Shown here piece by piece: positions 11,357-58,400 of a stretch of DNA of 64,000 bases (its first letter is position 1; the number at the start of each line of letters is the position of its first letter). The position numbers were made by a program, and so were the translations under genes. The notes beneath the pieces are model-generated. The model made no database searches and was not told the origin of the DNA. It saw only the letters and a list, made by a program, of their open reading frames with translations. The stretch spans positions 8,408,001 through 8,472,000 of the forward strand of contig OX387608.1 of assembly GCA_947568835.1 (NCBI GenBank), read 5' to 3'. Origin of the DNA: Protonemura montana (Eukaryota > Arthropoda > Insecta > Plecoptera > Nemouridae).

Positions 11357-11655
11357 AATGAAAGTTAGTACAGCAACTCTATTCACCTTGCTTATCAGTT
11401 ATCAACCTCTCAACAGCATGGATTTGTTGACGAATCCTGTTCGAGTTGTACCATCCTTCAGAAGTGACCTTAAGCTTGTGGACCACTTGGTGCTCTTCGA
11501 AAAAATTAGGCTGCGTACCGGACCGGGCCTTTCCCTCCTCCCTTTTTAGCCTAGGTTAGGTACATCACCGCCCATCCTCATCATTGTCTCGTACGCAGAT
11601 GCCGTTAGACCAGTGCTACAGGGTCTGTTCTCAAAACAGTGCGTCTTTAAGCAAG
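11357..11655 (+). mobile_element. 5S-derived SINE body, head missing
   Basis: It begins at the conserved body motif ATGAAAGTTAGTACAGCAAC and runs through the CCTAGGTTAGGT and GACCAGTG blocks to AAAACAGTGCGTC. The 5S-like head is absent and replaced by unrelated sequence. The body is diverged from the best copies, so this is an old or truncated insertion. Confidence 0.75.
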
Positions 11656-17945: not shown

Positions 17946-18010
17946 GAAGAATACATACAGTCTAGTGGCGCAGTTTTTGAGAGTGTAATGGTGTTTTTAA
18001 TAATAAAGAC

Positions 18011-18380
18011 GCCGAGTCCGGTATTGGATGGGTGATCATCATACAAATGACCAGTTCTGTTCGGGAGAGAGGTTGGAGGGATGAAAGTTAGTACAGCAAC
18101 TTCAATCACATTGCTTATCAACATTTTCTTATCAAATACAGCATGTATTTGTGGAGGAATCCTGTTGTTCGCGTTGTACCGTCTTTCGAAAGGGACGTTA
18201 AGCCGGTGGTCCCCTTGGTGCTCTTCGACAAGAGTGGGCTACGTGCCGGCACCGGGTCTCCCCTCCTTCCTTCTAGGCTATGTTAGGTTCATCATCATCC
18301 TCATCCACTCATTCACAGACGCCATTAGACCAGTGCCGCAGGGCCAGTTGTCAAAACAGTGCGTCGTTAAACACCACACA
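18011..18380 (+). mobile_element. 5S-derived SINE, partial head plus full body
   Basis: It starts inside the head at GCCGAGTCCGGTATTGGATG (5S C-box region) and continues through ATGAAAGTTAGTACAGCAAC to the end block CAAAACAGTGCGTCGTTAAA. The first 60 or so bases of the head are absent. It abuts a tRNA-derived SINE fragment on its left, giving a composite structure. Confidence 0.85.
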
Positions 18381-19150
18381 TCAATCAATCCATTAAGAGC
18401 GTATTAAAAACCGTCGACAGCTTCGGTTTGTGCTCGTTGACTATAATTTTCTCCTGTGGCCAAGCTATATTGTGGTTAAGGGGATTTATTGGGGACCTAT
18501 CGCGGATTTTGCTCTAAATATGTACATTTTGAGCGGATTTCAGTACATTTGATAAGAAAAACGAATCTTCAAAGACTCAGTCACTCTTGTTCCATTGACG
18601 CAATCTTTGAGATATTAATATTGTTCCTAATAATAAAAGGCGTGTCGCCAGTGGCCAAGCTATTATGTGATTAAGGGGACATTAATTGTCGACGAAAAAC
18701 TCGACGGAATCCTTGCTGGACCTTTTTCTTTGCTTATTTTACGTCTTTCGTATTGCAAGGGGGGGGGGGGGGGTGCCGTGACGCACGCTCACGCTTTTTT
18801 ACCCGCGTCCAAATAAACAGAGAGCCAGCGTATATGGAAGATTGGGGCCAACCGCTGGGTGCTACGGTGCTACTTTATAGCAAACAGTTCCAATTCCAGA
18901 AATACAAGAAGTTCCAGATGCATGATCACTGGGATTTCGATTCGTTTCGAAATGTCTGAAATGTAAACCTTCCTACTCTACGAGTGTTGGGGACTTGAGT
19001 TCAAGGATTTGAAATGTTGGCACATAAAGTAAACTTTCGATGTATCCTTGAATTACAAATTGTAACATAACCTAAAATCCACTCGCACTACGTACTTTTT
19101 AGTTTGCGGTGGAGATTGAAGAGGAATTGTAAAAATTTTTATGGGTGATT

Positions 19151-19292
19151 TATTTGTTCTGTTTAACGATGCAATGTTATGACAACTGGCCCTGTGATAC
19201 TGGTCTGATAGTGTCGGCTAATGAGTGGATGATGATGAGGATGATGATGAACCTTACCCAGACTAGAAAGACGAGAAACTCGGAGCAGGCAC
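19151..19292 (-). mobile_element. 5S-derived SINE, 3' end fragment
   Basis: In reverse orientation this is the SINE 3' end: GTTTAACGATGCAATG, CAACTGGCCCTG and a GATGATGATGAGG microsatellite-like block. It degenerates after about 140 bp. Confidence 0.7.
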
Positions 19293-20338
19293 GTAGCCCA
19301 TTCAAATGCAAGCTTTAACAAAAAAAGCCAAACAAGAACAAGAAATTAAACTTAAACATTTTTAATTAAAGTATCACGCCTTTCTTCATCAGAAGAAATT
19401 ATCTTTGCCCCCCCCCCCCCCCCCTTCCCGTTATAATGATAGGTTTTTGGGGATAAAACTTTTTTTCTTGCACGGGTTCTCACTAATACTTGACAATCTG
19501 AGCAAAGAAATTCGGCGTCACAGCTCCCCAATATATTTCTTATCTTACCGCCTCTACCGGCTTTTTTTTTTAATCAAAATGTTCCAAAATGTACCGGCTA
19601 TCTTCCACAAAGGTTCGCTTGTAACTTATCAATCAGATCGTCAGTAAGCAAGAGCTTGTTTTTATATTTGTTATCAAACAACAGACAAACACGTTATCTC
19701 TAAGCCTTTTTATATTTTCTGGTGAAGGAACCACACAGCAGTCTAAACCTAATTCTGTCCAAAAAAAATACGGTAAAATTGTTATCAGCTCTGAAAATCT
19801 GAGAATACCCATTTTTCGTTGGCTGATTTCTTTAAAGTCCGGGAAGGGGCTAAAGTAAAACACTGCTTAGTGGATCCAGCCCCTAATAAAAACAAACAAA
19901 GCTCGTTGAAGATTTCCAAAGACACTTTTGAAAAAAACGAACTTAAAAAACGTTTTTTTGCAGGACTTTGAATTATTACGAACCTGAAATGTCAAAAAAA
20001 AATCCCCGAAAACGAACCAATTTTTAGATAATAATACACTTTTTGATTCAACACACTATATATAGTAACCATCTTCGTAGAATGGGGGTACATGTTTATC
20101 GTATGTCCCCACCAGCTTGGCGGGTCACTTCGGAGTCAATTCGCACGAGTTATTATAGGTGTAGTCATGGGTAGGAACAGAACTTGTCAATAAACACAGA
20201 AAAACAACGGAAATTAACACATTTTTGAACCGCATAAAAATGATGTGGCATTGAGATTAATGCTGTTCACTTTAAACTGTCTTCCTGAAAAATGTCCGCC
20301 AATTGACTCCTTAAACGCGACAAAAATAAACGATGCTG

Positions 20339-24837: not shown

Positions 24838-25015
24838 TTGACAAAAAAACTATTTGAACTGGGTTTTGAATGCTAAGTGAAGAACAACTGAATTTCCCAA
24901 CGATTCGTAACTTTTACCTGTTACTTTATCAAGGGTAAGAGCAGTCCTGACAATTTTCCGATAACAAAAGAACCACAAAAATCATAACAATTACCTAGTT
25001 CAAGCATCCTAAATG
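24838..25015 (-). repeat. Dispersed repeat, family X, second copy
   Basis: In reverse it matches 16598-16687 (GGTTCTTTTGTTATCGG, TCAGGACTGCT). Its left part (TGAATGCTAAGTGAAGAACA) matches 56385-56480, which links the three sites into one family. Confidence 0.6.
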
Positions 25016-26315
25016 CATCTAACTAAAATAATCAGGGTCAATAATTATTCAGTTATTTGAGTCAACAATTGAGTTGCGTTCAACAATGAGTTGTGTCTGT
25101 TATTTTTATTGGTGTTCAATTAAAAGTGCAGACTGTAGTAAAAAAAATCTTGACAAGTCTTCAGGAACATGCATACGTTCGATGAAATCAAATCGGTATG
25201 CAACCGCGTTTTTTTTCAGCCACCTTGGACTAAAACTGGCGTGGAAAGTTGAATTTAAGAACGTACGAAACGAAAAGAAATTCAAAGCTTACAACTTCAC
25301 CATGGGTTCTTTCATTAAGTTGTGTATATTTATAATATGTGTATTTGGTACGAAAATATTGAGGCGTTAGGTTCACGGAAAAATTCGTGGAAATTCTAAA
25401 CAAATATTTATATTTTATTTACGGCACTAAATGGCATTAAGGAAATGGAAATCAGAACTGAATCAGCCATTTGGTTTATAAAGCACAAAGAACTCATAAG
25501 TCAAAAACAAATGGGCACGGGATTAAAAGAATTTAAAATTCCGCTTGATATAATCGAAAAATCAACAAGAGTTTTGTGTATTTTTGACTTAGTTACCTTC
25601 GTAAGCCGGGTATTTGCTACGGACTGACGTCTCTCGAACCTGTCTCCTGTGCGTCTATCCCCTCTTCGTTCCTCGCAGCGTCTGGTGTGGCTCGTTGGGA
25701 CGCACCTAAGAGCACCAGCTAAGATTGGCGTCCTCCTAGGCGTCCTACTGACAAGGAGGGGAAGGCGTCTGGGTTAAAATATAGTGGGGCACTCCTGGAC
25801 TTATCAAGAGTGACGCAATTCTGTGCACGTTGGCACGCTTTGTTTTCTATTAAATTTGAAATGCAAACAGTAACTTTAGGAGCTTGGCACACTGTCAGAG
25901 ACATTAAAAGAGGGCGACAGCAGTGAGATAAAAAAAAATCAGGTGGAATGCGATGAAATTAATATGGATTTATTTTTTTCATTCTTGGCATTGGAAAAAA
26001 ATGGCTTTAACTCGTTTTACTGGTAAAATTAACCGAATCACACTGCAGACTTATATTACTTACTTTTTCGAAATATTTTCAAAACTTTTTCAAAACTTTT
26101 TCAGAAATGTTTATTTTATTTATTTATTTATTTATTAACTCCAAAATAACATATGGTATACAAAATTGATATACATGTTGTAGGAGATTCGCGATCCACC
26201 AATAAGATATCACATTAATACAATGTTTGTCAGCAATAAAATGTAAAAGCATAGATAATAACAATAAAAATAATAGAATTCACACCGTGTTTGTAAAGCA
26301 GTCATTAATATTATA

Positions 26316-26759
26316 TTATTATTATTATTTGTGGTGTTTAGCGACGCACTGTTTTGACAACTGGCCCTGCGGCACTGGTCTAATGGCGTCGGTGAATGAG
26401 TGGATGATGATGAGGATGATGATGAACCTAACCTAGCCTAGAAGGGAGGAGGGGAAACCCGATGCCGGCACGTAGCCTACTCCTGTCGAAAAGCACCAAG
26501 GGGACCACCGGCTTCACGTCCCTTCCGAAGGACGGTACAACTCGAACAACAGGATTCCTCCACAAATCCATGCTGTCGAGAGGTTGATAAGCAAGGCGAA
26601 TGAAGTTGCTGTACTAACTTTCATCCCTCCAACCTCTCTCCCGAACAGAACTGGTCATGTGTATAATGGTCACCCATTCAATACCTGACTCAGCGCAGTG
26701 TTGCTTAACTTCGGTGATCTAACGAGAACCGGTGTTTCCAACACGCCAAACCGTTCGGT
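26316..26759 (-). mobile_element. 5S rRNA-derived SINE, full-length copy with 12 bp target-site duplication
   Basis: This 444 bp reverse-oriented element is flanked by ATTAATATTATA at 26304-26315 and 26760-26771. Read on its own strand it starts ACCGAACGGTTTGGCGTG, then CCGGTTCTCGTTAGATCACC, GAAGTTAAGCAACACTGCGC and GGTATTGAATGGGTGACC. These align in order with the A-box/intermediate/C-box promoter of 5S rRNA (GAAGCTAAGCA...AGTACTTGGATGGGTGACC). A 300 bp body of unknown origin follows, with a GAT/CAT-rich tract and an end at GTCGCTAAACACCAC. The tail is an ATA/ATT-type simple repeat. It encodes no protein and would need a LINE partner to move. Confidence 0.9.
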
Positions 26760-26771
26760 ATTAATATTATA

Positions 26772-29697: not shown

Positions 29698-29708
29698 GAT
29701 CGGTTTGA

Positions 29709-30124
29709 TTATTATATTATTATTATTATTTGTGGTGTTTAACGACGCACTGTTTTGACATCTGGCCATGTGGCACTGGTCTAAGGGCGTCGGTGAATGA
29801 GTAGATGAGGATGAGAATGATGATGAACTTAACCTATCCTAGAAGGGAGTAGGGGAAACCTGCTACTCCTGTCGAAGAGCATTAAGGGGACCACCGGCTT
29901 ACAACTCAAACAGCAGGATTCCTCCACAAATCCATGCTGTCGAGAGGTTGATAAGCAAGGCGAATAAAGTTGCTGTACTAACTTTCATCCCTCCAACCTT
30001 TCTCCCGAACATAACTGGTCATGTGTATGATGGTCACCTATCAAATACCTGACTCAGTGCAGTGTTGCTGAACTTCGGTGATCTAACGAGAATCGGTGTT
30101 TCCAGCACGCCGAACCGTTCGGTA
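29709..30124 (-). mobile_element. 5S-derived SINE with 11 bp target-site duplication
   Basis: This 416 bp reverse-oriented copy is flanked by GATCGGTTTGA at 29698-29708 and 30125-30135. It has the full head and body, with a small internal deletion in the block around GGCTTACAACTC, where the usual GTCCCTTCCGAAGGACGG is lost. Its head faces the head of the copy at 30150. Confidence 0.9.
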
Positions 30125-30149
30125 GATCGGTTTGACGAGAGATGGGAAG

Positions 30150-30452
30150 GACGGTTCTCGTGAGATCACCGAAGTTAAGCAACACTGCGCTGGGTCAGAA
30201 TTGGATGGGTGACCATCAGACACATGACCAGTTCTATTCGGTAGAGAGGTTGAAAGGATGAAAGTTAGTACAGCAACTTCATTCGCTTTGCTTATCATCT
30301 CTCGACAGCATGGATTTGTGGAGGAATCATGTTGCTGGCGTTGTACTGTTCTTTGGAAGGGACGTTAAGCCAGTGGTCTCCTTGGTGCACTTTGACAGAA
30401 GTAGGCTACATGCCGGCACCGGTTTCCCCACCCTCTTGTTTAGGCTATTCTT
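30150..30452 (+). mobile_element. 5S-derived SINE, 3'-truncated, head-to-head with its neighbour
   Basis: It begins ACGGTTCTCGTGAGATCACC and GAAGTTAAGCAACACTGCGC, with the C-box region GAATTGGATGGGTGACCATC intact. The body continues to GTTTAGGCTATTC and then stops. Only 25 bp separate it from the preceding reverse-oriented copy, so the two heads form an inverted pair. Confidence 0.85.
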
Positions 30453-31737
30453 TTCGTAACCGTGATTCCATGATTTGACTAGCGCCAAATGACTCATGAC
30501 GCCACCAGACCGAAGTCGAGTGCTCAGCAAGACTGCACGGCTGCAGAGGGTTTCAAGAGTGTGGTACGCGTACCCCCTGGGGTACGGGAAGAGTTTAGTG
30601 GGGGTGCACTTTTCTATAGCTTGAGCTCCACATAACTACTAGACACATTTCAGAATAGTATTTTTTTAATTTTAAGCATGGGGAATCCCACGGATTGAAT
30701 GATTATGTGTCCATGCATTTTTGTCATCTGTAACTATCCATAATTTTCTCAGCTTTCCAATGTATGTATATATATTTATACACATATACATCCTTTTGTT
30801 GTGAGTGGAAATAGGCAGGATTTTTGCATTACTTGTAGCATTGAATTTATAGACACAAACAGAGAGAGCGAGCATAACATTGTGTCTTAGCATCTACTAC
30901 GGTTATTGATTAAAGTTAGCTTTTGATACTTTACAAAACATTATTAACTTTGCAAACTTTAGAAGGAGATAGCAAAATCACTAACTTGCAGATAGTTTAT
31001 TTGAATATAATAAAAATCCAATTCCAATCTCCGAACTGTTTCCAAAAATGGTGCTCCTATTCTGAATCCAAAAATCATATCCAAAAATAAGACAGTTAAA
31101 TAAAACTTGATCTTTAATTAATATTTACATACATTTTTAGATTCCATCGCTCTACTGCTTACTCCGCTACTTTTTTCTACCTGGAAGCTACAATCATTAG
31201 TAACGGCTAGCTTTCGGCTAAATTAGCAATTATGTAGCAGTTAGTAGAAAAGATGCTGTAGGAAAAGAGTGCCTTTAATCTAGGATCTTTGTAGCGACTA
31301 CTTCGTTGTCTACATCCAGCTGAATAATTTTTGTGTCAGTTTGCATCATCATTCAGTTTGTATCAGTTTGTATCATTTTTATATCAAGGGTATTTTGTTA
31401 GAAACGTACAGAAAGGACAACTTTACTTTCCTATTGCTTTAGCTCAATTTATTTGGTTGCTGGAAATGGGTAAGGCGGTAAGCTGTTAGCTCTAAGCACC
31501 ATTTTAGCTATCACATTCTTTTCACAATAAAGTTTGAAAATAATTTGTATTTGGCGCTAAACCTGCCTTACCAATCGCAGGCCGTACGTATCTGTCAGTA
31601 AGAAAATGGCGTTGACGTAGTGCTGTGGGGGCGAAACTTTTAGACAAAAAAGTCAAAATTGTTAGTAGACGGGTATAAAGATGCCACTTTTATTGCTGTT
31701 ATGATACGAAATAAATTTTCTTGTTAATATTGGCACG
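30453..31737. other. Region upstream of STRIP1
   Basis: This is AT-rich sequence leading to the STRIP1 start codon. The STRIP1 promoter and 5' UTR must lie near its right end, but no clear TATA box or initiator could be fixed. No exon was recognised. Confidence 0.45.
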
Positions 31738-34700
31738 ATGGACGCTAACGGGAACGGCAAGCGCGGTATCCCGAAGCTAAGGGATCTGTTCAGCCGTCAG
31801 AGGAACGACTCTGACAGTGGACCAGACTGCCCAGACCTGGAATTTCTCTACGACGATGCGGATTCAATAGAAAATGAAATTGCAGAGCTTTACAGTTACA
31901 CCGAACAGCCCGAGTTTCAACTCAACCTTAAGGCTTTTGAAGACCAGATGAAAGCTTATAAGCTTGGCCCATACTGGCACAAACTCACGGAAAACCAACA
32001 CAGATCGATCGTAATGAAGCTCCTGGACCAACTCGAAGTGTCGAACAAGGTTCTCCGCATGAAGTCTGCACGATGTGTACTCTACTTGGCCCAGGGCTGC
32101 TGGTCGGAAGCACAGTCAGATGCCGAACAGCAAGCGAAGGCTCGACAAAACGTAGTTTTACTCTGCCAGTGCGGGGTTTTTGCTGCATTTGTTGAACTAT
32201 TAAACATTGAAATCGAAAACAGTACTGCAGCATCAACAGCTTTACGAAAACTTGCTGTAAGTCTGGCAGACTCAACAGATCTACGCGTAATTCTAAACGT
32301 TCTCTACATAATGGTGGAAGTAATGCGACTGGAACGCGAAGATGACTCTGAGGAATTCAGAGCACACCGCGAGTCATTCAAATCAGAGCTCGGGATGACG
32401 TACACTGATGAGCTGATTGCGGTCAAGCTTCTTGGCATGGTCACCAGATTTTGTTCAGGATCTGCTCCTCACTTTCCGATGAAGAAAGTGCTTCTCTTGC
32501 TTTGGAAGGTTTGTAATTGTCAGAATTTGGCACATTCTTAAATATTTTAAATCGATGGGGTTGGTTTTATTATTTTAATCAAACTCAGGTAAGCAGTAAA
32601 TGTATTAGGTTGTGGCACAGTGCTTATTTTTACAATAAATGGCTTTAGGTTAAGATTTCTATTCAACATATAATCACTTCATAGTCTGCATCTACTCTTG
32701 TCATTAGATACCTACCGCTTAGCTTTTGACAAAGAGACAGTACATTCCGTGAAGAGACTGGCACCTACTCTCTGGTCTTCATGGCACAACCTATCCAGTA
32801 GCAAAGCTAAATGTGCACATAGGGAGGGAAGAACAAAACCAAAGAAATTGCATTGTTTGCTACTTCAAAGTAGTTATTTGTATAAGACTACTTTTAAAAT
32901 TAATACTGAAAAATAAAATTCCATGTCTAGTTCAATTCCCCAGTGTTGATGAGATAAAATAAAGGTAACAGACCACCTTCAACCATTGTGCAGGTTGTGC
33001 TTGTATCGGTCGGCGGCACGGCAAGTTTGCGCTCAACAAAACGCGAATACCGCGAGGCAGCTGGGTTGACCATCGCGCAGGATACGATGGAAGTGGCGCG
33101 GACGATGCGGGCATCATCACCGCCCGCCTCCGCCGCAGACCTGCTTGAGGCACAGAATCAGAAGCGGTCGAACAGGCCATTCCGGCGCGCGCTTATAAAG
33201 CAGTCGTCGCTTGACGAGCAGATGGGCATGGATTTTGAGAACCAGGACGTCGACAGCGAGGAAATCGACCAGATGCAGGAGTACCAGGTAGGCTTTTGGA
33301 AATAGTATGTATTTCTAACTAATAAATTGCGCGCTTTACGTGGTTATAATTACCGTTTGCTGCTAAACATCCAAAGGCTCAAAAATGTTAGATGTGTGCC
33401 TTAGAAGAACTGCTTCAGACATGTGTATTTCAAGAATAGAGGCCTCTGTTTCTTATTAAGATGAACAGTGGTCCTAGAGGTTAAATTCTCGCTCCTTTGA
33501 CGTAGTCCTTTAAGTAGACGTAGACTTTAGTTAGTAACTTATAAATAGGGAGTACAAACACAATAAAGTCGAAAAAAGTCCTAGCTATTTTTACATTCAT
33601 AGCTTTTTCCTACTTAAAAGATCTCGACTTTCACCCACTTCTGCTAACGTCCTTCCACCAAGACCATGCTCCCAGGTATTAAAATGAAACCTGACCTTAC
33701 CCCAATGTATTCTGTTTGTGCTGACAGGAACAGCTTGAGGAGCGGCCAGACACCCCTGTAGCCCCGCCCAAGGGCAAGGGCCTGCCATGGACACCCAAGG
33801 CACGGCAGAAAGACCTTGACTTGTTCCTGGAAAACACCCGACTCAAGTTCGTCGGCTTTGCACTGCAAGGTAAGCTCAACGAAAAGAACATCAACAGCAA
33901 AGGCTTGCAGCCTCAGGTTCCTTTCCCTATAAGTAGGACAGTAAGAAGGACAGTTAACCTTGAGAATGATAAAAATGAAAATTGAAATGTCTCCATACTG
34001 ACTGACTGCTATGTGAGCATACAACTTGTTGATTAACCCAAGAAATGTGTCGGCGCTGTGTCGCAGTTGGTCAAATACCACGGTTTCTTGTCCTCGACCT
34101 AATGGTCGTCACCCATCCGACACCTGTCTGAGCACTGTGTTGCTTAACCTCTAGGCGATCGAGTCTCCCTGGCTGGACTGCCTCAGCCGATCCACGAAGG
34201 CGTCAAGGTGCTGAAGCAGAACATGTACTTGTCGCTGGCCGAAACGCAGATTACAAAGGAGGAGGAGATTGCCCGGAATCCCATCTCGACGCTTGAGCCA
34301 AACTTCTTGCTAAATCCTGCTGAAGTGCTCTACCAGGTGAGTGCATGATAGAAATCGATGGATTTATCTGGCAAAATTGTTCGCTGCGCAGTCAATGTGG
34401 GTGGGAAATAAGTCTAGAGTTTATATTAGACTAAGATTTGTCAAATCAGGGAAGTGTTTCATAGCATATGGGAGCAGGTGACTATCACTGTTGCCTTTGT
34501 GGTGACGATTCCATGACAGTGAACTATTTAAACCTGGCATTTGAGGGAAAGTTGCCAGAGTCCACACAAAACTCCTCTATTTCTTTCAGATTTAGTTTAA
34601 AGATGTCTGTGACTTGACTTTCAGCCAATTGACAAGTTATACCTTGAAGGTATAACCTTAATTTGTTTGATAACCAATAGTTGCAAATGCTGCTGAATGA

Positions 34701-37659: not shown

Positions 37660-39874
37660 CCAATACGTTGACATCAAAGTCTCTAGCGATTAGCTTTCTT
37701 TCGGCACAACGTTGATGTTTCAAAGACGATTACAATACTCTGGAGAGTTTCCTATCGTTGGCATCAGTTGAGATTTCAAGCAACGTTTGTTTGCCATCGG
37801 GGAGTACAATTTTACAGAGAAAATGAGATTTTCTATTAAATTATTTGATTTTATCACAATTTTACTCCAAGATGGCATCCAAAATCAAAAGCAACTTCAA
37901 TTTTGACAGCCTAAAACTATCGTCAAAACCTCCTTGATTGCTTGCTGTTCTAGCAAGGACTTTCGAGTGTCAGACTTGTCTTGAAGCAGATTGGGCAGTC
38001 ATAAACAATCTTAGACAGATGGTATCTTTGCTAGAAGGACATTTAACAAGGGTTTCTACGTAAATGCTGGTTGTACAATGTCCACTTACACAGGTAACTG
38101 GCATTTATTAAGAAAGCACATGTCCATACCTTTGGACATGAACTGCCACGGGGGTAGTGATCATGTAACTTTTTGATTCATTTACCCTGGGAGGTTCCGA
38201 TTTAACGTTAGTGATCTCTAACGAAAAAGTTACATGATCACTACCCAGTACATAGTAAAATCAGCAGATTAAGTATACTTGCTTTTTCAGGACAGTGGCT
38301 GTTCTGAGGTCCCCATATGTCAGAAACGCTAAATATCAGTTGAATTGGATCCTGAAGTTATATCTGATACCCAGAGAGTTGCGAATATTTTTGGTTGATA
38401 CTCGAATTGGATCAGCAGTGTGGAAATGCATTTGAATTGTGTGAAGCGAATCATTGCATTCTAGGTTGTCCATCATCTCTGTCATTTAGAAGCAGTTCAA
38501 AATAGTAATTCTGTAAAAAAATAATATATTATTAGTAGATAGAGCAGCTATCCAGGGGATCATTTTAACCCTGACTACTGTAAATCTTTCTTCACTGCGA
38601 GTTTTTTGAAAAAACTTTGAGCATTTTAGCCAGCTATTGTGACAAGAATCGATCCCAGAAATGAAGTATTTTAACCGCTTATCTGTGTTTTACCAGCCAT
38701 CGTTGGCAAAAATGAACTTATATTTATTTGTAGTCTGTGTGGCGAAACCCATATCCCTTTCCTAACAATACTAAAACGTCACGCGCAGTTTACACTCAGT
38801 TTTTCTATTGCATGTACTCATTGTTTTTTTTGTTTTGAACTAAGTTTTGATATACGTATAGCAGATTTTGTAAAAATCATTTTTAGTGACATGTGTTGAA
38901 CTTGAATGTTTGTTAAAAATTAGTCTTTATAGAATGTACATTGATAAGACGAGAGCCAAGTAGAACATTACATGATTTTATTTATATTATATTAGTTATT
39001 TAATAACTGTATGCCATAGGATTTGTTCAAATAAACACGATCTCGTCGACGATTGTAGTGTCGATGCTGACTGCAACTAACATGACGTTTCTTTCTTGTC
39101 CGACCACAGCAACCTAACCATGTTAGCTCCAATTGAAAGTGGTTGGCTCAAAGTTATAAACAATGCACGCCCAAGCTCCTATTTTTTTCGTAGATTTACC
39201 TGCATTTCTGCGCATCGACTGTTCTACTTGTCTGTAATTGTGTGAATGGATTGGTGTTGCAAAAGGAGTTGTTACGGAACTTACCAAGAAGAGATGTGAT
39301 GGTGGTAAGCCAGAATGGATCGCTTGGATTTGTAAACATTTTGACCAAGGCATAAACCGAAACTCTTACACGGACGAGTAATCGATGGCTTCTTGACACC
39401 TTTACGTCAATACTTAGTAAATTTATAAGAATTCTATGTACCTCTCGCCCAAAGACCTCTCGCCCTTAAACATGTCCAGCCTTTTAATACACTTTCTACC
39501 AACATGTAGCAATCGACCTATTTCTATGAGTGACAGGTATTAGTTATTCTTACTGTCTTCAGAAGAAAACACCAATGCCTATTTTATAGATGAAGGTTGC
39601 CTGTAAGCCAAATTCGTAGCGAACTTTGAATTTATGCGCGCATCGCGCCATATTGACTTCAGCGATCGGGTGGGTGCCTGTGAACTAAGTTTGCGATCTG
39701 CCATTTAACATTTGTTGAGGCAGTGACACATGGTTGGTATCTTGACTTTTAAGATTTTACGTACAAAAAAAACAGTCTAGATATTTTTTGTGAGGTACCC
39801 TTCATCAAAAATCAATTATCCCTTTTTAAGTATTATCTTTACTTCACAGGGCTCTTCTTGAACGAGCAATAACC
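37660..39874. other. STRIP1 3' UTR and PNO1 upstream region
   Basis: It contains the probable STRIP1 3' UTR to about 39050 (AATAAA at 39030-39035), two hairpins (38119-38140 and 38152-38246) and then sequence leading to PNO1. TTCACAG at 39843-39849 looks like an acceptor for a 5' UTR intron of PNO1, which would place the PNO1 promoter further left. Confidence 0.5.
38152..38246. repeat. Long hairpin in the putative STRIP1 3' UTR
   Basis: Arms GGGTAGTGATCATGTAAC plus TTTTT (from 38152) and their inverse AAAAAGTTACATGATCACTA plus CCC (to 38246) pair over about 23 bases with no mismatch. A smaller hairpin, CATGTCCA/TGGACATG, lies just before it at 38119-38140. It could be an RNA structure or a small inverted-repeat transposon. 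Confidence 0.7.
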
Positions 39875-40594
39875 ATGGATACATCAAGTGAGGTTATACC
39901 GTTCCAAACCGTGGCTAGCAAAAAGGCAAAGAAAAGGCGTATGCCAATAGAAGAAGATGACTCGAAGATGGAAGTTATCGAAGGAATTGAAGGAACCAAA
40001 AAGCCCCAACAAGGGACTGCTGCTAAGAAGGCCAAGCCCCATGTTTCTCATTTGGAAATGAGGAAGATTTCCGTTCCCGCTCATCGGTACACTCCTCTGA
40101 AGCGTCAATGGATGAAAATCTTCTCTCCAGTCGTGGAGCACCTTCGCCTCCAGATCCGTTTCAACCTGAAAACTCGTCAAGTTGAGATCCGAACTAGCAA
40201 GGACACAACTGACATCAGCAACCTCCAGAAGGCTGCTGACTTTGTTAAAGCATTTATTGCTGGGTTTGAAATTAATGATGCATTAGCTCTCCTCAGACTT
40301 GATGATCTCTTTGTTGAAACTTTTGAGATCAAAGATGTAAAACCACTGAAAGGAGACCACGTATCTCGGGCTGTCGGGCGTCTTGCTGGACTTGGCGGTA
40401 GAACGAAATTTACAATTGAAAATGTGACCAAGACCAGGATTGTGCTAGCTGACTCAAGAATTCACATCCTAGGCTCGTTCCAGAACATAGCTGTTGCTCG
40501 AAGGGCACTGTGCAACCTTATCCTTGGTTCGCCTCCATCCAAAGTGTATGGCCAACTAAGGAACGTTGCCAACCGAATTTCCCAGAGAGTTTAG
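39875..40594 (+). CDS. PNO1: RNA-binding protein PNO1 (Dim2), small-subunit ribosome assembly factor
   Basis: A single uninterrupted frame gives 239 residues, about the family length (around 250). The first 60 residues are Lys-rich and acidic and probably disordered. The conserved core begins RKISVPAHRYTPLKRQWMKI, continues through NLKTRQVEIRTS, and includes the second KH domain with GRLAGLGGRTKFTIENVTKT and RIHILGSFQNIAVARRALC, ending at NRISQRV. PNO1 joins pre-40S particles in the nucleolus, binds the 3' end of 18S pre-rRNA and holds back NOB1 cleavage at site D. Context CAATAACCATGG suits the chosen start. An upstream acceptor suggests one 5' UTR intron. AATAAA copies at 40899-40908 fit the transcript end. 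The absence of coding introns is unusual beside neighbours with seven to nine exons. Confidence 0.97.
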   Translation: MDTSSEVIPFQTVASKKAKKRRMPIEEDDSKMEVIEGIEGTKKPQQGTAAKKAKPHVSHLEMRKISVPAHRYTPLKRQWMKIFSPVVEHLRLQIRFNLKTRQVEIRTSKDTTDISNLQKAADFVKAFIAGFEINDALALLRLDDLFVETFEIKDVKPLKGDHVSRAVGRLAGLGGRTKFTIENVTKTRIVLADSRIHILGSFQNIAVARRALCNLILGSPPSKVYGQLRNVANRISQRV

Positions 40595-44632: not shown

Positions 44633-45330
44633 CCATCGTCTGATTGTATGCTCTTCGTTCAATTGTCTGTTCCTTCTGACAACATCACCTAATAGATGAA
44701 ATTGATGCTGTCTGAAGATCGAGTATGTATGATATTAAAAATGTAATAGCATTTCAATTTGTTCAAATTGTTCTTGTTCCATAAAGCCACTTTTAAGGTA
44801 TGGTTTACATCAAATCTTGAACTGCATTTCTATGTCAATTATCACCATTGATTTGATCAACAGCATTTAGTATGTTTCACTAAATTACGCAGTCTTTACC
44901 CCCAACTGATCCAGATGCTGTCTTTCGAGAAATATGCTCGAGAAAGTGTGTTTTTGGTGAAAACTTAACGTGGGGTTTACGAAAAGATTTTCTACCTGCC
45001 AGATCAAATTGTTTTGACGAAAATGGGAATAAAATGAATTGCATAAATCTCTATTCTTGGTGTGCTTAAAGCTACAAAATCATAAATTTATATCAAGTTT
45101 GCTAAACGATTTGTATCGTGTTTCTACCACAATTTCCACAATTATCATAAATATAAATATACACAAATATATAAGAAATCACAAGGCAACTCATCTCTTA
45201 CCACGCACGTCGACGCAAACATCTGGTCTGTGTTGTGTCTGTTTTGCAATAAAACATTTTTCGGCAGCCAGACCAGGACTCGTAGGCCAGCTAAGTGATG
45301 CAAGGAGTGACAGGGAGAGAGATTGATCAA

Positions 45331-45663
45331 TTTGTGGTGTTTAACGACGCTCTGTTTTGACAACTGGCCTTGCAGCACTGGTCTAATGGCTTCAGTGAAT
45401 GAGAGGTTGATGATGAACCTAACGTAGCCTAGAAGGGAGGAGGAGAAACCCGGTGCCGGCACGTAGTCTACTCCTGTCGAAGAGCCCCAAGGGGACCACC
45501 GAATTAACGTTCTATCCGAAGGACAGTACAACTCAAACAGCAGGATTCCTCCACAGATCCATGTGGTCAAGAGGTTGATAAGCAAGGCAAGTGAAGTTGC
45601 TGTATTAACTTTCATCCCTGCATCCTCTCTCCCAAACAGAACTGTTCGTGTGTATGATGATCA
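45331..45663 (-). mobile_element. 5S-derived SINE body, head missing
   Basis: It has the reverse-oriented complete body, from TTTGTGGTGTTTAACGACGC to TCTCCCAAACAGAACTG and GTGTATGATGATCAC. It ends exactly where the 5S-like head should begin. Loss of the head by 5' truncation is usual for elements copied by LINE machinery. Confidence 0.85.
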
Positions 45664-45709
45664 CATTAACTTAAAAAAAATGCATAGACAAAAAAAATTA
45701 TTCTAGCGA

Positions 45710-49482: not shown

Positions 49483-52400
49483 ATGAGGACTACAAAGGCT
49501 GTGCTCAACAACATTACCAAAATGCTGGACTTTTACTCGCAATTCAACCCGTCGCCGCTTTCGATAAAGAAGTTCATCGATTTCGGTAAGTTAATTTTAT
49601 TTTCTGTTCCCATTGTTGTTGAGATTCTGGATTTATCGAACTACAACATTTTTCTGCGATTTCCGTGATTGACGCTTTGCCCATTTCTTTTAACGCTGTA
49701 GAAGCACGAGATAAAATCCCCGGATGGCGGACTCCCACGTAATTATATCCCTTGGCATTGGCACCGTGCATTTCCATCCTAACTAATAAATCAACACAGT
49801 GAGCCCCAAGCAAATTAGCACCTGCGAAATCGACTAGTTGAATCCGACAGGAAAGGCCAAGAAATATGTCATGGGAGCATCTCACGGGCGACGTCATAAA
49901 ATAAATAACAAGCTCACTCGTCAGCGAAAGTCGTTTCTCGCCGTTGTTTTTGTTATGATCAAATTCATTTGATTTTTAAATCAATACAGATTGATCTCTT
50001 TTCACTTGCGGCGGTCATGACGTAACTTAGATAACGAAAAGCGATTCGAACTGGTTCAATTCGGTGTAAACGTAACGAGAAATTGGGGTCGGGCTAATTT
50101 ACGGCACGCCATGCGACAGTCGTCACGTTTTCATCTAGCTATAGCGTTTGTCTAACACCACGAAATTGCCTTCGCGGTCGAATCACTTTGTCAAGTGCCA
50201 ATGACATCGTGTAGGTTTAGTTCCAGCACGTTCATCATTCCGCAGCTTCGAAACTTGTAGGTCCTGCCAAGGGTTGGTTGACCCCGGGCGCGAGTCCAGA
50301 CTGTGACCCTTCGTGCAACGCCCAAAACCCGGACCTTTCGCAACTCGCGTGTCCTCTTCTGACCTCCAAGGAGGTTTTATTGCTACCATACACGTAAACA
50401 TTGGCTTAAGCATGGTTTATTAGCATCGTTGACCAACGCCTTACGTGCCAAACCAGTGCATTTGGCCTCGGGGGCTTGTTTTGAACCTCATTCGAAACGC
50501 TCATGAACATCTTATCAATACCATATTTTTTTGAGTCGCTTTTACAATTCACATGGAATAGTTATAATAAACAGTGTCATTGGGATGTTATAGAATTTTA
50601 TTATTCTCGAAAGAAATCACTGCAAGTACTACTTTGTTACTGATTTATTGCGATAATTGAGGCCGCTGGCAGTTTTATCATGCAGTTATCTTCCGCGACC
50701 TTTGTTTCTGTGATGATGACATTGACTGCATGTGACATTGGCATACTGTTTATATCTGACCAGACATCTCAGTGCTCTTGTTTACTTAAGCTTTCAAACA
50801 AAGATCTTGTCTTCCTTGCAAGAAAGCTGTCTTCACTATCCTGGTGGTGCAATGAGTTTATTTATTAGCATCAATAGAAAAGGATTGCTAAAAATAAAAA
50901 TAAGTACGTTTCTTACTTCCTCTACCGTATTGATTCCATGAGAGTTGCTATTCCGAGTTTCCAAAAGCGATCGATGAGCACAGAGAGCTCTACTATGTCC
51001 TTTAATGTCGTTCACTATACAAGTTTTACTTGCAATGAAACTTAATGTTTAGTTAGTTCCTTTGGAGAGATCCCACTAGAACTACCCTTTTTTTAACAAG
51101 TAACGATCTCAAGACCCAACAATGTGGTCGCCATAATTCTGCCAGTGAATTCATTCCTATTTTGAACGTAAATAAAAGAAGATCCATAACACATTCAGCA
51201 TCTGCAACTGTTATTACGCGCAATACTTGCTGTATTGTCATGGCCTTGAACTAAAATATTCCTTTCTGGACTTGATTAAGGCCGTTGACCTATGTTTCCC
51301 GCTCTCCGACGGTCATACCAATTTCGACACCCTCGGCTGCCCCCCTACCCCCCTAATTACTTTGAAGATACATTTCTTTTTTCACAGTGATCTGATTTAT
51401 CTTAGAGAAAATAAAATAATCATCAAGGCTCTAAACTTGGCGACACCGTTAGACCATGCCGCAGGGCGTCAAAACAGTGCGTCGTCAAACCATACTAATC
51501 ATCACTGTACTAGAGAAGGGTATCGTCACAGAGATTTGGTATTGCTGGGTTCCGTATCATGTACGGTTGATACAAAAAACTTTATGAGAGAGTGCAAAAT
51601 ATATTTTGACTTTTCTGGCTATTTATATCTATGCAAGGTCGTCCCATGATAGCAGTCGCACCTTTAGTGATATATCTGAATAACGTTGTTTGAGTAGAAT
51701 TTGGCCTTCTGCTGATTTGTGTCCCGCCTGCAAAGAGATGAGCATCGGGTATGTTATTATTAACAACACTATAACCGTCTCAAAAATTGACGCCCAAATG
51801 TTCCCGTTTGGGCATTAATTTTGAGACGGTTATAGTGTTGATAATAATAAAATACCCCGCGTACTGCAAGCGTTTGCAATTTAAATAAGATTTCATCCTA
51901 ATATGACATCGGGTATGGGTCACCGGATTACTTTACTCAGCCTACCAGGCATGTCACGTGTTCTTTTCACTAACACAGCGCTTGAAATCAGGGGAAGAGG
52001 CAGGATGCAACAATAAATCAAAGTACAATTGAGTGAGTGTCTTCTCTGAATTGCTAGAATTGTAATAACCCAATTGCAAACCTCATGGTAATGACAATAA
52101 AGATACTAAAGCACCTGTCACTGGCCACTGCAGGGCTTCTTCAAGACGCATCATTCTTAGTGTCAATGTCATGTTACCATTCAGGTATATCGTTGCTATT
52201 TCCAAAATTGATCATTTTGTGGTGTAGTATGTCGTTTTGGCTGCCTTATTGTTAGGTTCTGTCTCTGGAGAAGGTACCTACCTGTAGATAATTTCATTTT
52301 TTTTTAATAACCAAGCAACATGGCTTGTAGAAAGCAAAATAACTGTCAATAAATCATGTATTGTATAAGATAAAAAAAACAATAAACAAACGAACATTGG

Positions 52401-55400
52401 AGACAACCGAGGTTAAGCAATAGTGGGCTGGATCAGGTATTTGGATGGGTGACCAAGAAATATCATAAATTATTATTGCGCTTATATACCACTCTTTGGC
52501 TATGAGTTTGAAGGGTTTGTAGTTGGTACCTACAACAGCTCTGCATCTAACCGCATTTGTATAGCATGGATTTGTGAAAATTTCACAGAGGTGACATCTA
52601 GTTGGTGGTTTTGATATGAGTAGTCTACATGCTAGCACCAAGTTTCCGTTCCTCCCTTTCAGGCTAGACTATAAATAAGTCCATCTTCATCATCACCCTA
52701 CCATTCATCAATGTCAACTAATAAAAAGAGGTCCCATGTAATGTTAGCTAAATAGAACTAACTGCAATTGTGACGTGACATTTGTTGTAGGTCTGAGTGC
52801 GTGCGAGCGCAAGTCGTTCGTGTTCCTGCGCAAGGAACTCCCAGTGCGGCTGGCCAACATCATGCAGGAGATCCACCTTCTGCCGGAGAACCTGCTCCGG
52901 ATGCCCTCGGTCGGGCTTGTCCGGGACTGGTACGCACGCAGTTTCCTCGAGATTCTCGAGTTTGAGAAAACAGACGTCAATGAAGGCAACCTGGACAGGT
53001 ATGTGGATTCGTTTGGTAGATCCAGCCATTTTTTTAGATATTTCTTTATTATTTATTTATTTGTGGTGTTTAACGACGCACTGTAGTAGATGATGATGAG
53101 GATGATGATGAACCTAACCTAGCCTAGAAGGGAGGAAGGAAATTCCGGTGGCGGCACGTAGTCTACTCCTGTCGAAGAGCACCAAGGGGACCACTGGCTT
53201 AACGTCCCTTCCGAAGGACGGTACAACTCGAATAACAGGATTCCTCCACAAATCCATGCTGTCTAGAGGTTGATAAGCAAGGCAAATGAAGTTGCTGTAC
53301 ACATTTTTATCCCTCTTACCTCTCTCCCGAAAAGAACTGGGCACGTGTATGATGGTCACCCATCCAATACCTGACTCAGCGCAGTGTTGCTTAACTTTGG
53401 TGATCTAACAAGAACCGGTGTTTCCAACATGCCAAACTGTTCGGTTTAGATATTTGATTTAAATTTGTTTAGTATTGCTATTTAAAGTTAAGAAAGTAGA
53501 TGAAATTGAGGGTGGTATATTAAAAGAAAAAAGGTCAAATTCTGCAGAAAAAAGGGTAAGATCAGAAATGGCTATTGCTGCAAAATAACAAATATGTGCC
53601 TACCATATTTACCTACATTTTTCTGTCAAGGCTGTTTTCTTGCATATGTTAGAAATTTCATTTAGGTAGAAGCTGCTGTATAAGCCATACATAAGCGGAT
53701 TTTGTTTTGTTATTTAGTACTTTTACCTTTGCTTGTACTTACCTTGCAGTGCTGGGGGCTTAAGTGGTTTGCCTATTATTATTCATTGAATCCCTTGCAA
53801 GTCCTATTGTACACACCACATGACAAGTGTTTAATTGCGAGATTGTTAAAATGTAGGCATAAATCCAAGCTCCTGAATCTTGAAACATAAGCATGATTTA
53901 CAAGATTGTTGAGGAATTGAAGTCAGTGTTCTAATCTGGGCTCTTTGAAACATTCTTTCAGCCCAATTATTTTTAGAAACTGCAAGCAAGTTTACGTTCA
54001 CTACCCCAGGTTTTTATTAACTAGCAATGGACAGGCAGACTAGAAGTATTCTAAACATTGCTGCCCAGATTAATCACTTTCATTTTGCCTCACCATTAAT
54101 ACAAATAAATCTGCCTCTTGCTGAATCTTGAGTGACCTCTCAGCTACAATATTGATTTACAATCAATCAGTATAATGGTGGTTTCATCGTAATTCATCGT
54201 ATAAATTAAATCAAATCCAACGTGAAGTGATTTCTTGAACCGAGTTAATATGGCTTTCAGTTGGTGTATCCAACTTAGACATATCCATCTCATATCCATC
54301 TAGTACCTTTATGGCTAATACATTGATAGGCTATAAATCATAATACATTTCTGATTTAAATTTGTATGTAAGATAGGGCAGTTTTCCGTTTCTGTGAAAA
54401 ACGCGATTTTTTTAAATACCGCTTTTTTCTTGCAGACGTTTACGTGTTAGATGTCATATGTTCTAAAAACGTAGTAAATTTTCTTCCTTTGTTTAGTGAG
54501 AATTTGGGCAATAACAATAATTAAATCTCAAAATGCCAGAATTGTAAATCTTTGTACAAATCAACTAATTTAAAGTGGAGGTCTAGGGAATTCCAAGAAA
54601 AAGAGTCTGCTGAGATATGTCAGAGATTCTATTCCTAGAGACTTCACCACTTGGTCTCAAGGTTGCTGCATCCTTGTTTATGGTCACATGGGGTAGTCAC
54701 AGGGAGAAAACCAATAGAAATATCCTTGGAGGGGAGAGTGAGTCTTGGCATGTTAGTCATTTCTAAGACTCATGAAAGACTAGAACCAATTTTAAAACCT
54801 TTGCTAAGCTTAGCTTGTGGCATGTGGCTGCCTATTTCCAATGCAGACTCCGAAAGAAACAATGTTGTAACTACCTGCATGCCACCGTTTGGAGATGTGT
54901 AATAAAACAAAATAAATTGTTCAACTAATGTGTGCTACTGTCTTATTATACTGATAGACCATTTCTCCATTCCAATTCTTTAAAATCATGATTTAAAAAC
55001 TTAGTTTTTTCAAAACAGCGATTTTTTTCTAAATTTCCACTGCCAATTCACTACTTTTTGGTATTTATAATGAGAATTTTTCTCTTTTATTATCACCACA
55101 AACTCCTGGCTCTGGCATGAGACTTATATGTAAGAGATATGAAAAAGAAAGGAATAATATGTACCTATAGAGCTTTTGGAAAAGGGGATAAAAGACTGGA
55201 ACCGGCTGGAAATTGCAAGAGAAATGATAGAAAATTGAAAAAAGTTTCAATAAGTGATAAAAACGATTCACTATTTAGTGTTTTGTCATGTTTCGTTTAG
55301 AAAATCGAGCTTGAATATATGTTGTGCAAATCTGTTGGAATAAATTAACAACTTGAATAAATAAATAAAAATGTAGCACTTAGCTTAGGAATAATATTAT

Positions 55401-58400
55401 AATTGGCGGCCGTTTGGTATAAACGTGTCTTTACACGCAACGGTTGGCTTTACTGGGTGTGTGGTTCCAGATTCTGCGAGCGGCTGTCGACGATCCGGAA
55501 CCGACACACGGACGTTGTGCAGACGATGGCACAAGGTGTCCTCGAGCTAAAGGACTCGCACGATGTCGACCACCAGACGGAAAACTCTATCCAGTATTTC
55601 CTCGACCGGTTCTACATGTCGCGGATCAGCATACGCATGCTCATCAACCAGCACAGTGAGTAAAAGATTTTTTTGTTATTAGAAACACTAATACCCTCGC
55701 AAAAATTGATGCCAAAACGAGAACTCGACTACCAATCTCGACCAATCTCCACACAGGGTTCGAGTCCCCATTTGGGCATCAATTTTTGAGAGGTTATTAG
55801 TGCTCCTAATAATAAAATAACGCGCGCATCACAAGCATTTCCTATTCAAATCAGATTTAAGTCTGAGAGTCAAAGGTGTCATTAGAGTCAAAGGCACTAC
55901 CTTAGTGCCCACATACCTTGAGAGCAACCCCCTAACGATCACAAGGAAAAGATCTCTACAGACTAGTTTTTTATTTTGAAGCCAATGAAGTCAGCTGCCT
56001 TACCTTGCTAATTTATATCCAACGTTGCAAAACGCTCTCTGCCTTCTAAGTGAATGGGAAGGTACACAAACAAGGTGATAATTTGCTTGATGGGCATTGC
56101 TCTCAATTAAAAATAAAAATCAGCAGTCACCATCAGAGATAAATTTTCCACTTTTCTAACAGCTTAGATCTTCCGATAATAATAATAAAAGTACAATTTT
56201 ATTTTGAGATTGGTTTCATAATAACAATAACAAATAATAAGAACAACAACAAACATCGTTGTGAGGAACTCGTACAATAAAAAACAACTGTGTTTTAACT
56301 TTTTCAAGAATGCTTCAAGTGATTTTGCAAAATCATGGTTTTTAGACTCCTGTCTACTTTATCTATCCTCGGCACTAGTTGTGACAAAAACTATTTAAAA
56401 TGGGGTTTGAATGCTTAGTGAAGAACAACTAAATTTCCCAACACTTCGTAACTTGTACCTGTTACTTGAAATTTAGCTGTTCTTCCGAAAACTATTTCAA
56501 ATAGTTTTTGTCGATTTTGCAAAATCTTTGCCATTTCTCTTGGACTTTGAATTAACAGGTGAATGACTAAAAAATTTTACACCCCCCTTATTGGTCCATT
56601 GCAAAGATATTCTGTAGTCATATTATAAGAATGGCAGTTGTTACTTTCTTATATAGACGTGGCAACTGTCATTTATTGTTCTGGTCAAATTCTTATTGCT
56701 ACCTAAATATGTATAATATTAAAAATAAACAAACAAAGTAATACATACATAAACTATAGGGGTCTACTTGAAAATTGATGTGGTAAGAATGTAATGTACA
56801 TTAAGTGGTTGTAAAGTTTACTTCATTGTTTCACAAGTACTAGGGAACCTTCAATAGTCACGTCGGTCTAATCGCTGTTCTGACTAAGCAGACGCTGATA
56901 AAAAGATATCTGATGCACTTATATAGTTTGATAGCCACAAAGAGTCATCTTATCAAAGTTCAAGTGGGAAACTATTATTGGAATAAGACAACACAACAAT
57001 AAATAGATAAAACGTTTCATTTCCTTCCTGGTGTTGACAGATAACTGATAGCGAGAATACAGGGATATTACAATAACTGGCTCTTCGAAACGTAATTTGT
57101 GTTGTTTTGCAGATGAGCGTATTTTATTTTGTTCTTTATTCCTTTATTTTCTTTAGAATGGGTTGCCCCGCATACTTCTTTGGGTGTTTTTTGTTCGTTG
57201 CATTTTCCTTCAAATTGTAACAAAATTTCATAGAAATTATGTTGGAACTACGTAACGTTCATGTAGTTTATAAAGTACTAAAACTGCATATTTCCTTACC
57301 ACTGTGTCTGTCCTTTACAAACTCTGAAAGATAATTTATAAAATATACAAATTTCTGTAAATTTTGAATAGTTACAAAACTTTTTGACCGATTTATCTGA
57401 AAAAGACGAAGGGTCTAAGTTGAAAACACAAAAATGTGCTATGCAAATTTGATTCAAATCGGAGTTAGCGTTTGGCCGCTAGAGCGCAAACATATAACAC
57501 ACAAGAAACTTAAAAGTGATTTTTTTTCTGAGGTGTTTGAAATTGAAGATTTTGCTTCGCTTGCTTAGCTCATAAATATATTTTATTTTATTCCTGCATT
57601 TTCATGGATTTTCTATTTAAAAACTCTTGCCAAACTAATTCGATACTTCATTGTTAGCGCTGCTGTTCGGCAAGAGTCCAGAGTCGCTGCACAGCCGGCA
57701 AATCGGTTGCATCGACCCGCACTGTGACCTTGGCAGCGTAGTCAGGGACGCGTACGAAAACGCCAGGTTCCTCTGCGACCAGTACTACTTGGCCTCCCCT
57801 GAGCTGGTCATTACACAACACAATGGTGAGTCATTTACTTGTGGATGGGTTTCAGTCTATGGGCTTGTTTAAAAAAAAAACATATAATTTAATATTGTGA
57901 CTTCACGCATAAAGGCTGGTTTTTCAGTCGTCTGTTTAGAAACTAACTGTCTGTTAATTTGTTATTTGCTTGGCAACGGCCAATCAAAAGCTGTTTTCTG
58001 TTTGTTAAAAGTCTGTTAACTACTAGATATGCCACCGAAAAACCAGCACCAAGTGAATGTGCAGTGCACATGTGGCCCAAAAAGCAGATTCTGCACATTC
58101 TTTGTGCTTTCACAATGAATGATAATTGATAAGACTGTAATTATTGCATGGTGTGTCAGCTGATTTGTGTAGGTATTGTTGGAATTTGACAATAAACACT
58201 TTGGGGAAATGTTTAGATAGGATCATAAAGATTCTAGAACCAGAGCAACTGTGATCGGCTCTCAGGGCAACAACCATTCAGTTTTATTTTTCTGTCGCTC
58301 AGGTGGATTTGGATCACCCCACAGCATTTGATGCCAAAAACACTTTAGACACTAGGCAAACGGTTGTATTGCAAGTCAGTTTAGTTGGTAGTGATGTTTG

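Follow-up and report, generated by a model that had tools for sequence, protein, structure and literature searches.

SINEs whose 5′ head derives from 5S rRNA are already published for Tribolium and several Lepidoptera, according to the sections available of PMC3272025, PMC8010984 and PMC10886601; the named families are SINE3-1_TC of Tribolium, HaSE3 of Helicoverpa, and PxSE4 and PxSE5 of Plutella (PMC3272025; PMC8010984, same sections). The novelty of such elements in arthropods, which the original prediction had implied, is therefore lost to these reports. The word 'tandem' is absent from the main text of PMC3272025 and PMC8010984. Tandem DNA made from SINEs has been described in squamates as SINE-derived satellites (sSats), whose repeats are more uniform in long arrays and which show a subtelomeric preference, stronger in longer loci; in the parts of that paper available, their occurrence elsewhere is left uncertain (Vassetzky et al., 2023; PMC10702118). 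To judge by the titles of the reports, satellites have also arisen directly from 5S rDNA in the fish Hoplias, the frog Physalaemus and Plantago. No report of a satellite formed from a 5S-derived SINE was found among the open-licence PubMed Central papers listed.

The DNA examined here is a stretch of 64,000 nucleotides of Protonemura montana (the window, C11:8408001–8472000), considered within its assembly of 258,480,905 bp in 34 contigs, 11 of which hold 247.6 Mb. We think it very probable that the window carries copies of a 5S-derived, SINE3-type SINE that was mobilised by a LINE, and that an internal duplication at the DNA level turned this SINE into a satellite near the chromosome ends. 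Positions 26304–26771 of the window hold a complete SINE, in minus orientation, between the two exact copies of a 12-bp target-site duplication (ATTAATATTATA, 26304–26315 and 26760–26771). The copy between them (copy A, 26316–26759, minus strand) belongs to a young subfamily and matches the 439-nt consensus described below at 99.3%; its 5′ end is at 26759, its 5S-derived head occupies 26639–26759 and its (AAT)n tail 26316–26330. Between head (~120 nt) and tail lies a body of ~320 nt, in keeping with the predicted order of a head followed by a body and a simple-repeat tail. Copy B (29709–30124, minus strand; 85.4% to the consensus) has an internal deletion and is flanked by an exact 11-bp duplication (GATCGGTTTGA, 29698–29708 and 30125–30135). 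It was inserted at the 5′ end of an older copy, B2 (30125–30447, plus strand; 85.2% to consensus positions 5–327), which is without its 3′ part; the duplicated target of copy B is therefore itself SINE sequence, its right-hand duplicate being head sequence of copy B2. Copy C (53044–53445, minus strand; 92.0% to consensus 1–362 plus a tail piece) has a deletion near the tail and lies between exact 11-bp duplications (TTTAGATATTT, 53033–53043 and 53445–53455), the first T of the latter, at 53445, possibly also being the final base of the SINE. The three exact duplications of 11–12 bp that had been claimed were borne out, reading directly as 12, 11 and 11 bp.

Less complete copies were found at 18010–18381 (plus strand, without the 5′ 65 nt; 88.9% to consensus 66–434), at 45330–45664 (minus strand, without the 5′ 87 nt; 87.0% to 88–434) and, older, at 11358–11653 (plus strand, without the 5′ 136 nt; 79.7% to 137–426). 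They are accompanied by a 3′ fragment at 19150–19298 (minus strand; 83.0% to 284–436), a decayed copy in two pieces at 52406–52707 (plus strand; matching 46–94 and 262–368), a short fragment at 51441–51490 (plus strand; 83.9% to 370–425) and four even shorter matches at 14781, 15178, 16384 and 34108. The window also contains coding exons for an N1221-like (STRIP-type) protein at 31705–32541 and for PNO1 at 39830–40594, and at 59203–59706 a HATPase_c domain protein that resembles pyruvate dehydrogenase kinase (all by Pfam). Elsewhere in the assembly, the 15,885-bp contig C34 represents the mitochondrial genome, with TGA as tryptophan in cox1 and the order cox1-trnL(UAA)-cox2, the anticodon UAA being read from the tRNA loop; this order is the pancrustacean arrangement. 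Nuclear copies of cox1 were seen at C4:5760925–5777755 (L039, L041), one of them equal to the mitochondrial score (455.5 bits) and hence either a very recent NUMT or an assembly artefact.

Identification of the head rests on comparison with the Rfam 5S_rRNA model (RF00001) and with the host's own genes. The model matched the heads of copy A (26759–26639, minus strand; 64.4 bits) and copy C (53445–53325, minus strand; 56.6 bits) over positions 1–120, while copy B (30123–30003, minus strand; 37.8 bits) and copy B2 (30127–30242, plus strand; 33.1 bits) scored below the cut-off. No tRNA or 7SL match was obtained in the window with Rfam (at gathering thresholds and at E up to 0.5) or, for tRNA, with ARAGORN, which agrees with the predicted 5S rather than tRNA or 7SL origin. 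Canonical 5S genes are present in the host, an aligned example scoring 116.7 bits. Alignment of the head to the host 5S gene had been set in advance as the comparison that could refute a 5S origin; it scored 88, whereas 2000 dinucleotide shuffles averaged –14 and reached at most 15.5, and BLAST gave 82.9% over 76 nt. On the covariance-model alignment the head and the host gene were identical at 76/116 positions, with 26/29 at model positions 19–48, 36/49 at 49–97 and low identity at both ends (7/18 and 7/20). The SINE head would thereby retain a putative 5S internal promoter region, in which the limits of the A box, intermediate element and C box were placed from their positions in the Xenopus 5S literature. 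With these positions the earlier box labels had to be shifted: the A box is GAAGTTAAGCAACACTG, which had been labelled as the intermediate element, and the CTCGTTAGATCACCGAA / GATCACCGAA block, labelled as the A box, lies upstream of it. The quoted TTGGATGGGTGACC reads TTGAATGGGTGACC, one base different, in the copy for which it was named.

The structure of the head was examined on the same alignment. In helix I, 12 positions are changed and 8/9 pairs are kept, 4 of them by two-sided changes; random changes at the same positions did as well in 2,257 of 100,000 trials. Because the alignment itself was structure-fitted, this pairing provides only moderate evidence that the head may have been maintained as a 5S-shaped RNA. 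The head of copy A folds at –43.3 kcal/mol (z = –3.3). Host 5S genes were also seen at the start of C11 (C11:1–19800; L044, L045), interleaved with H1, H2A, H2B, H3 and H4 in a repeat of ~9.5 kb that holds three 5S genes in mixed orientation (histone types partly named by eye).

The family was sampled by a genome search with the window copy, in which the best 40 of 4136 candidate places, the window copy included, were scored and showed 97–100% identity. Thirty loci, again including that of the window, were fetched and gave the 439-nt consensus, from which they diverge by 0–2.05%; because they were chosen as best matches, they represent the young end of the family. Of the 30 loci, 27 (all but L019, L035 and L037) had flanking duplications of 9 nt or more (9–14), compared with 3/870 in a cross-locus control. 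The start of the tail was located in 30/30 loci, and an (AAT)n tail was parsed in 28/30. One might suppose that 5S retropseudogenes had merely landed beside unrelated repeats, so that there would be no SINE family at all, and a head that covers the whole 5S model would suit such pseudogenes. However, head, body and tail form a single 439-nt unit, its start and end words were present in 30/30 fetched loci, the duplications bracket the whole unit in the 27 loci that have them, and independent insertions have the head–body junction in common. The probability that we assign to retropseudogenes is accordingly close to nil.

The same flanks bear on a second alternative, a small LTR element (TRIM) with a 5S promoter of the Cassandra or Ajax kind, since such elements do carry 5S boxes (PMC10886601, in the portion available). 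Within 600-bp flanks, 27/30 loci had no common match of at least 40 bp, and of the three exceptions, L012 has an inverted match of 47 bp, while L029 and L033 are inserted in tandem arrays. Direct flank repeats of at least 40 bp were absent from 28/30 loci, L029 and L033 excepted. The duplications of ~9–14 bp differ from the 5 bp of Ajax, and a simple-repeat tail is present, so that an LTR origin has virtually no chance of being correct. The sequence evidence thus supports a SINE with a 5S-derived head, of the SINE3 type. The original prediction of a retroposed 5S-headed SINE holds up, given the whole-model Rfam match of the head and the duplications around most of the fetched loci.

Counts of diagnostic words, with at most one mismatch, gave 4,509 + 4,579 occurrences (9,088) for the body, 1,461 + 1,497 for the head and 1,364 + 1,386 for the tail, and the reversed control patterns of all three gave 0 matches in the genome. 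An exact body word had 0 matches in viral_contigs and 0 in genome_contigs. Insertion of the SINE into SINE or SINE-derived sequence was seen at window 29698–30447 and in L015, L025 and L033. At another locus (L029, C16:27187326–27190771) a young SINE interrupts an unrelated tandem array whose period is ~63 bp. Separately, L032:2350–3394 holds a tandem series spaced by 68 bp, in which 22–25 nt are similar to SINE positions 260–284; it is perhaps another short SINE derivative.

Retroposition of the SINE would proceed as follows. RNA polymerase III would transcribe it from the internal 5S promoter of the head, producing an RNA that ends in the body and the (AAT)n tail; this 3′ end would then be recognised by the reverse transcriptase of a LINE and the RNA copied into staggered nicks, giving rise to the duplications of ~9–14 bp. 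A TTTT within the body was found in 27/28 readable copies of the young subfamily, and full-length Pol III transcription could be weakened by it. When the consensus was compared with 32 reverse transcriptase (RT) loci, 30 of which (L046–L075) included 1.5 kb downstream and two of which (L076, L077; downstream of common long-ORF RT families) included 2.5 kb, no LINE with a corresponding 3′ end was found. A 17-nt match in L056 was rejected as a partner end, as it falls inside an RNase H-like reading frame. Also rejected was the only LINE family with a clearly visible 3′ end (L062–L064, L067), in which poly(A) follows unrelated sequence. Of the (AAT)n-type tracts without a SINE tail upstream in the window and the fetched loci, the 61 of 95 that were listed displayed no recurrent LINE end by eye. 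A LINE ending in GTCGTTAAACACCACAAATAAT-like sequence and an (AAT)n tail would support a partner role. With regard to the distribution of RT sequences, 18 of the best-scoring 30 RT matches fell within C11:50,000–950,000, adjoining the 5S-histone array.

Some SINE copies contain tandem repeats of a 91-bp block that extends from the A box past the C box into the body. In two of the fetched loci, L033 (11.1 + 6.4 units) and L018 (5.1 units), SINE positions 50 to ~140 recur in tandem every 91 bp, with 93–96% matches. The junction between units joins SINE position ~146 to position 50 at the 6-mer AAGTTA, which is a direct repeat at ~50–55 and 141–146. A 23-nt junction word that does not occur in the plain consensus was counted 11,930 + 11,772 = 23,702 times with at most one mismatch (reversed control, 0), and multiplied by 91 bp this corresponds to ~2.16 Mb, or 0.83% of the assembly. 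The relation of the arrays to the SINE was followed on contig C1 in 32 arrays built from the exact junction words listed up to 21.0 Mb. In 21 of these 32 the next feature was an exact SINE body word in phase with the repeat (143 + 91k bp), whereas randomly shifted body positions gave 0.019 on average and never more than 1. In further loci the first array unit extends to the SINE 5′ end (L079–L081), or the last unit runs on into the SINE body and tail (L078). The remaining 11/32 C1 arrays had no exact in-phase body word, and the array of L033 has non-SINE sequence at both edges; some arrays have therefore lost or left their SINE.

The reverse order of events, in which the SINE was assembled from a unit of a pre-existing 91-bp satellite, would fit the excess of monomers over SINE bodies (23,702 vs 9,088 words at up to one mismatch) as well as the lack of a SINE at either edge of the L033 array. 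In contrast, the 5S homology of the SINE head extends ~49 nt upstream of the unit, the unit itself runs into the SINE body, and the 21 in-phase C1 arrays lie inside SINEs. We consider a satellite-first origin very improbable and conclude that most placeable arrays originated within a SINE. For this DNA-level process, the second in the history of the element, the AAGTTA direct repeat would be the breakpoint of the internal duplication; breakpoint, phase and location are observed, and recombination would be the mechanism behind the duplication. Its product would be a SINE-derived satellite, the long arrays of which are concentrated near chromosome ends.

Some arrays on C1 are arranged in inverted pairs, and this raised another alternative, in which a Foldback-type DNA transposon would have the arrays as its arms and a dispersed 2-kb sequence between them. 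Four inverted pairs were found among the listed C1 words, three ~3.45 kb and one ~2.8 kb apart, and the interior sequence was matched at the best 40 of 281 candidate places (L078 included), the others being 91–96% identical. However, the arms are SINEs, with body and tail in L078 and with head in L079 and L080, and 28/32 of the exact-word C1 arrays up to 21 Mb lie outside such pairs, which makes a Foldback origin highly unlikely. As L079 and L081 have their left outer flank in common, two SINEs seem to have been inserted into a larger repeat. L078 itself (C1:23320450–23324050) shows a ~2-kb dispersed non-coding sequence between two inverted array-bearing SINEs, and its layout, seemingly that of a larger mobile repeat with two SINEs, recurs elsewhere on C1. 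It also includes a MITE-like palindromic repeat (L078:2483–2814; 72% self-complementary over ~330 bp) with relatives at 24845–25044 and 56331–56467 of the window.

A 1011-bp, 11-unit query from L033 gave full-length matches of 94–97% at the best 40 of 3372 candidates, which manual collapsing reduced to 39 arrays (with three pairs <4 kb apart); a two-unit query gave 37 places, hand-collapsed from the best 40 of 1780. With both queries taken from one subterminal array, and so possibly favouring similar arrays, 37/39 of the arrays of about 1 kb or more lay no further than 3 Mb from a chromosome end, where 26.7% would be expected (binomial p = 2e-19), and the two-unit matches were within 3 Mb at 28/37 places and within 5 Mb at 36/37. 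Young SINE copies were within 3 Mb of an end in 5/40 cases (best 40). For C1, 27/53 exact SINE heads were within 3 Mb of an end (18% expected), 40/100 exact bodies listed up to 21.5 Mb were in the first 3 Mb, and so were 23/32 arrays listed up to 21 Mb. These figures indicate that the ends gather SINEs generally and long arrays more strongly; a subterminal bias is thus not unique to the arrays, SINEs also being enriched at the C1 ends. Contig C16 (29.6 Mb) had 0/39 of the long 91-bp arrays and 6/40 young SINEs; it may be a sex chromosome, or its end structure may differ.

Whether the promoter part of the unit is conserved was assessed in 16 complete monomers (10 from L033), which had 29 differences over 44 positions in the promoter part and 17 over 47 in the rest. 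Selection on the promoter part was thus unsupported, this part being no less variable than the remainder, and at the level of sequence we see no sign of a selected promoter function in the arrays. A further reading, which we regard as rather unlikely, is that a Pol III type-1 promoter has become satellite DNA by way of a retroposon: with >20,000 units that include the TFIIIA-binding region, TFIIIA or TFIIIC could bind to the subterminal arrays, which could also be transcribed and act as boundary or heterochromatin elements, and the head RNA may keep the 5S shape. If that were true, a 5S-shaped SINE RNA could use 5S-binding proteins to reach ribosome-bound LINE machinery.

Compared by description, not by consensus letters, the present SINE resembles the insect SINE3 families, which in the sections available likewise combine a 5S head with A, IE and C boxes, a body, a short-repeat tail and target-site duplications, and number thousands of copies (4415 for PxSE4, 1952 for PxSE5). 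It differs in its tail, (AAT)n here vs (TGA)n in PxSE4 and (ATGT)n in PxSE5. Cassandra and Ajax have likewise borrowed 5S promoter boxes, but they are LTR elements, Ajax with 5-bp duplications (PMC10886601, relevant portion). Satellites from 5S rDNA share the 5S origin; their titles name 5S rDNA as the source, whereas the arrays here are in phase inside a SINE. In anatomy the arrays resemble the squamate sSats, which as described in the available parts of PMC10702118 are tandem repeats of an internal SINE part with a terminal unit reaching the SINE end, and have a subtelomeric preference greatest in long arrays (37/39 here). Four or more head-to-tail units of an internal SINE part, as expected of sSats, were found in L033, L018 and the 39 1011-bp arrays, and a terminal unit continuing to the SINE end was found in L078–L081 and in the 21 in-phase arrays of C1, but not in L033. 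In contrast to the reptile sSats, whose source is tRNA-related SINEs (PMC10702118, same parts), the present unit stems from a SINE of 5S origin, spans the entire 5S internal promoter region and is found in an arthropod host. A single chromosome-scale assembly here contains plain SINEs, short duplications and long arrays side by side, which makes it possible to put the steps in order and to date them. The SINE itself thus belongs to a known type, and its satellite is an arthropod case from a different promoter class, an independent one with the same anatomy and chromosome-end concentration as the squamate sSats, which suggests that interspersed DNA may become tandem by a general route.
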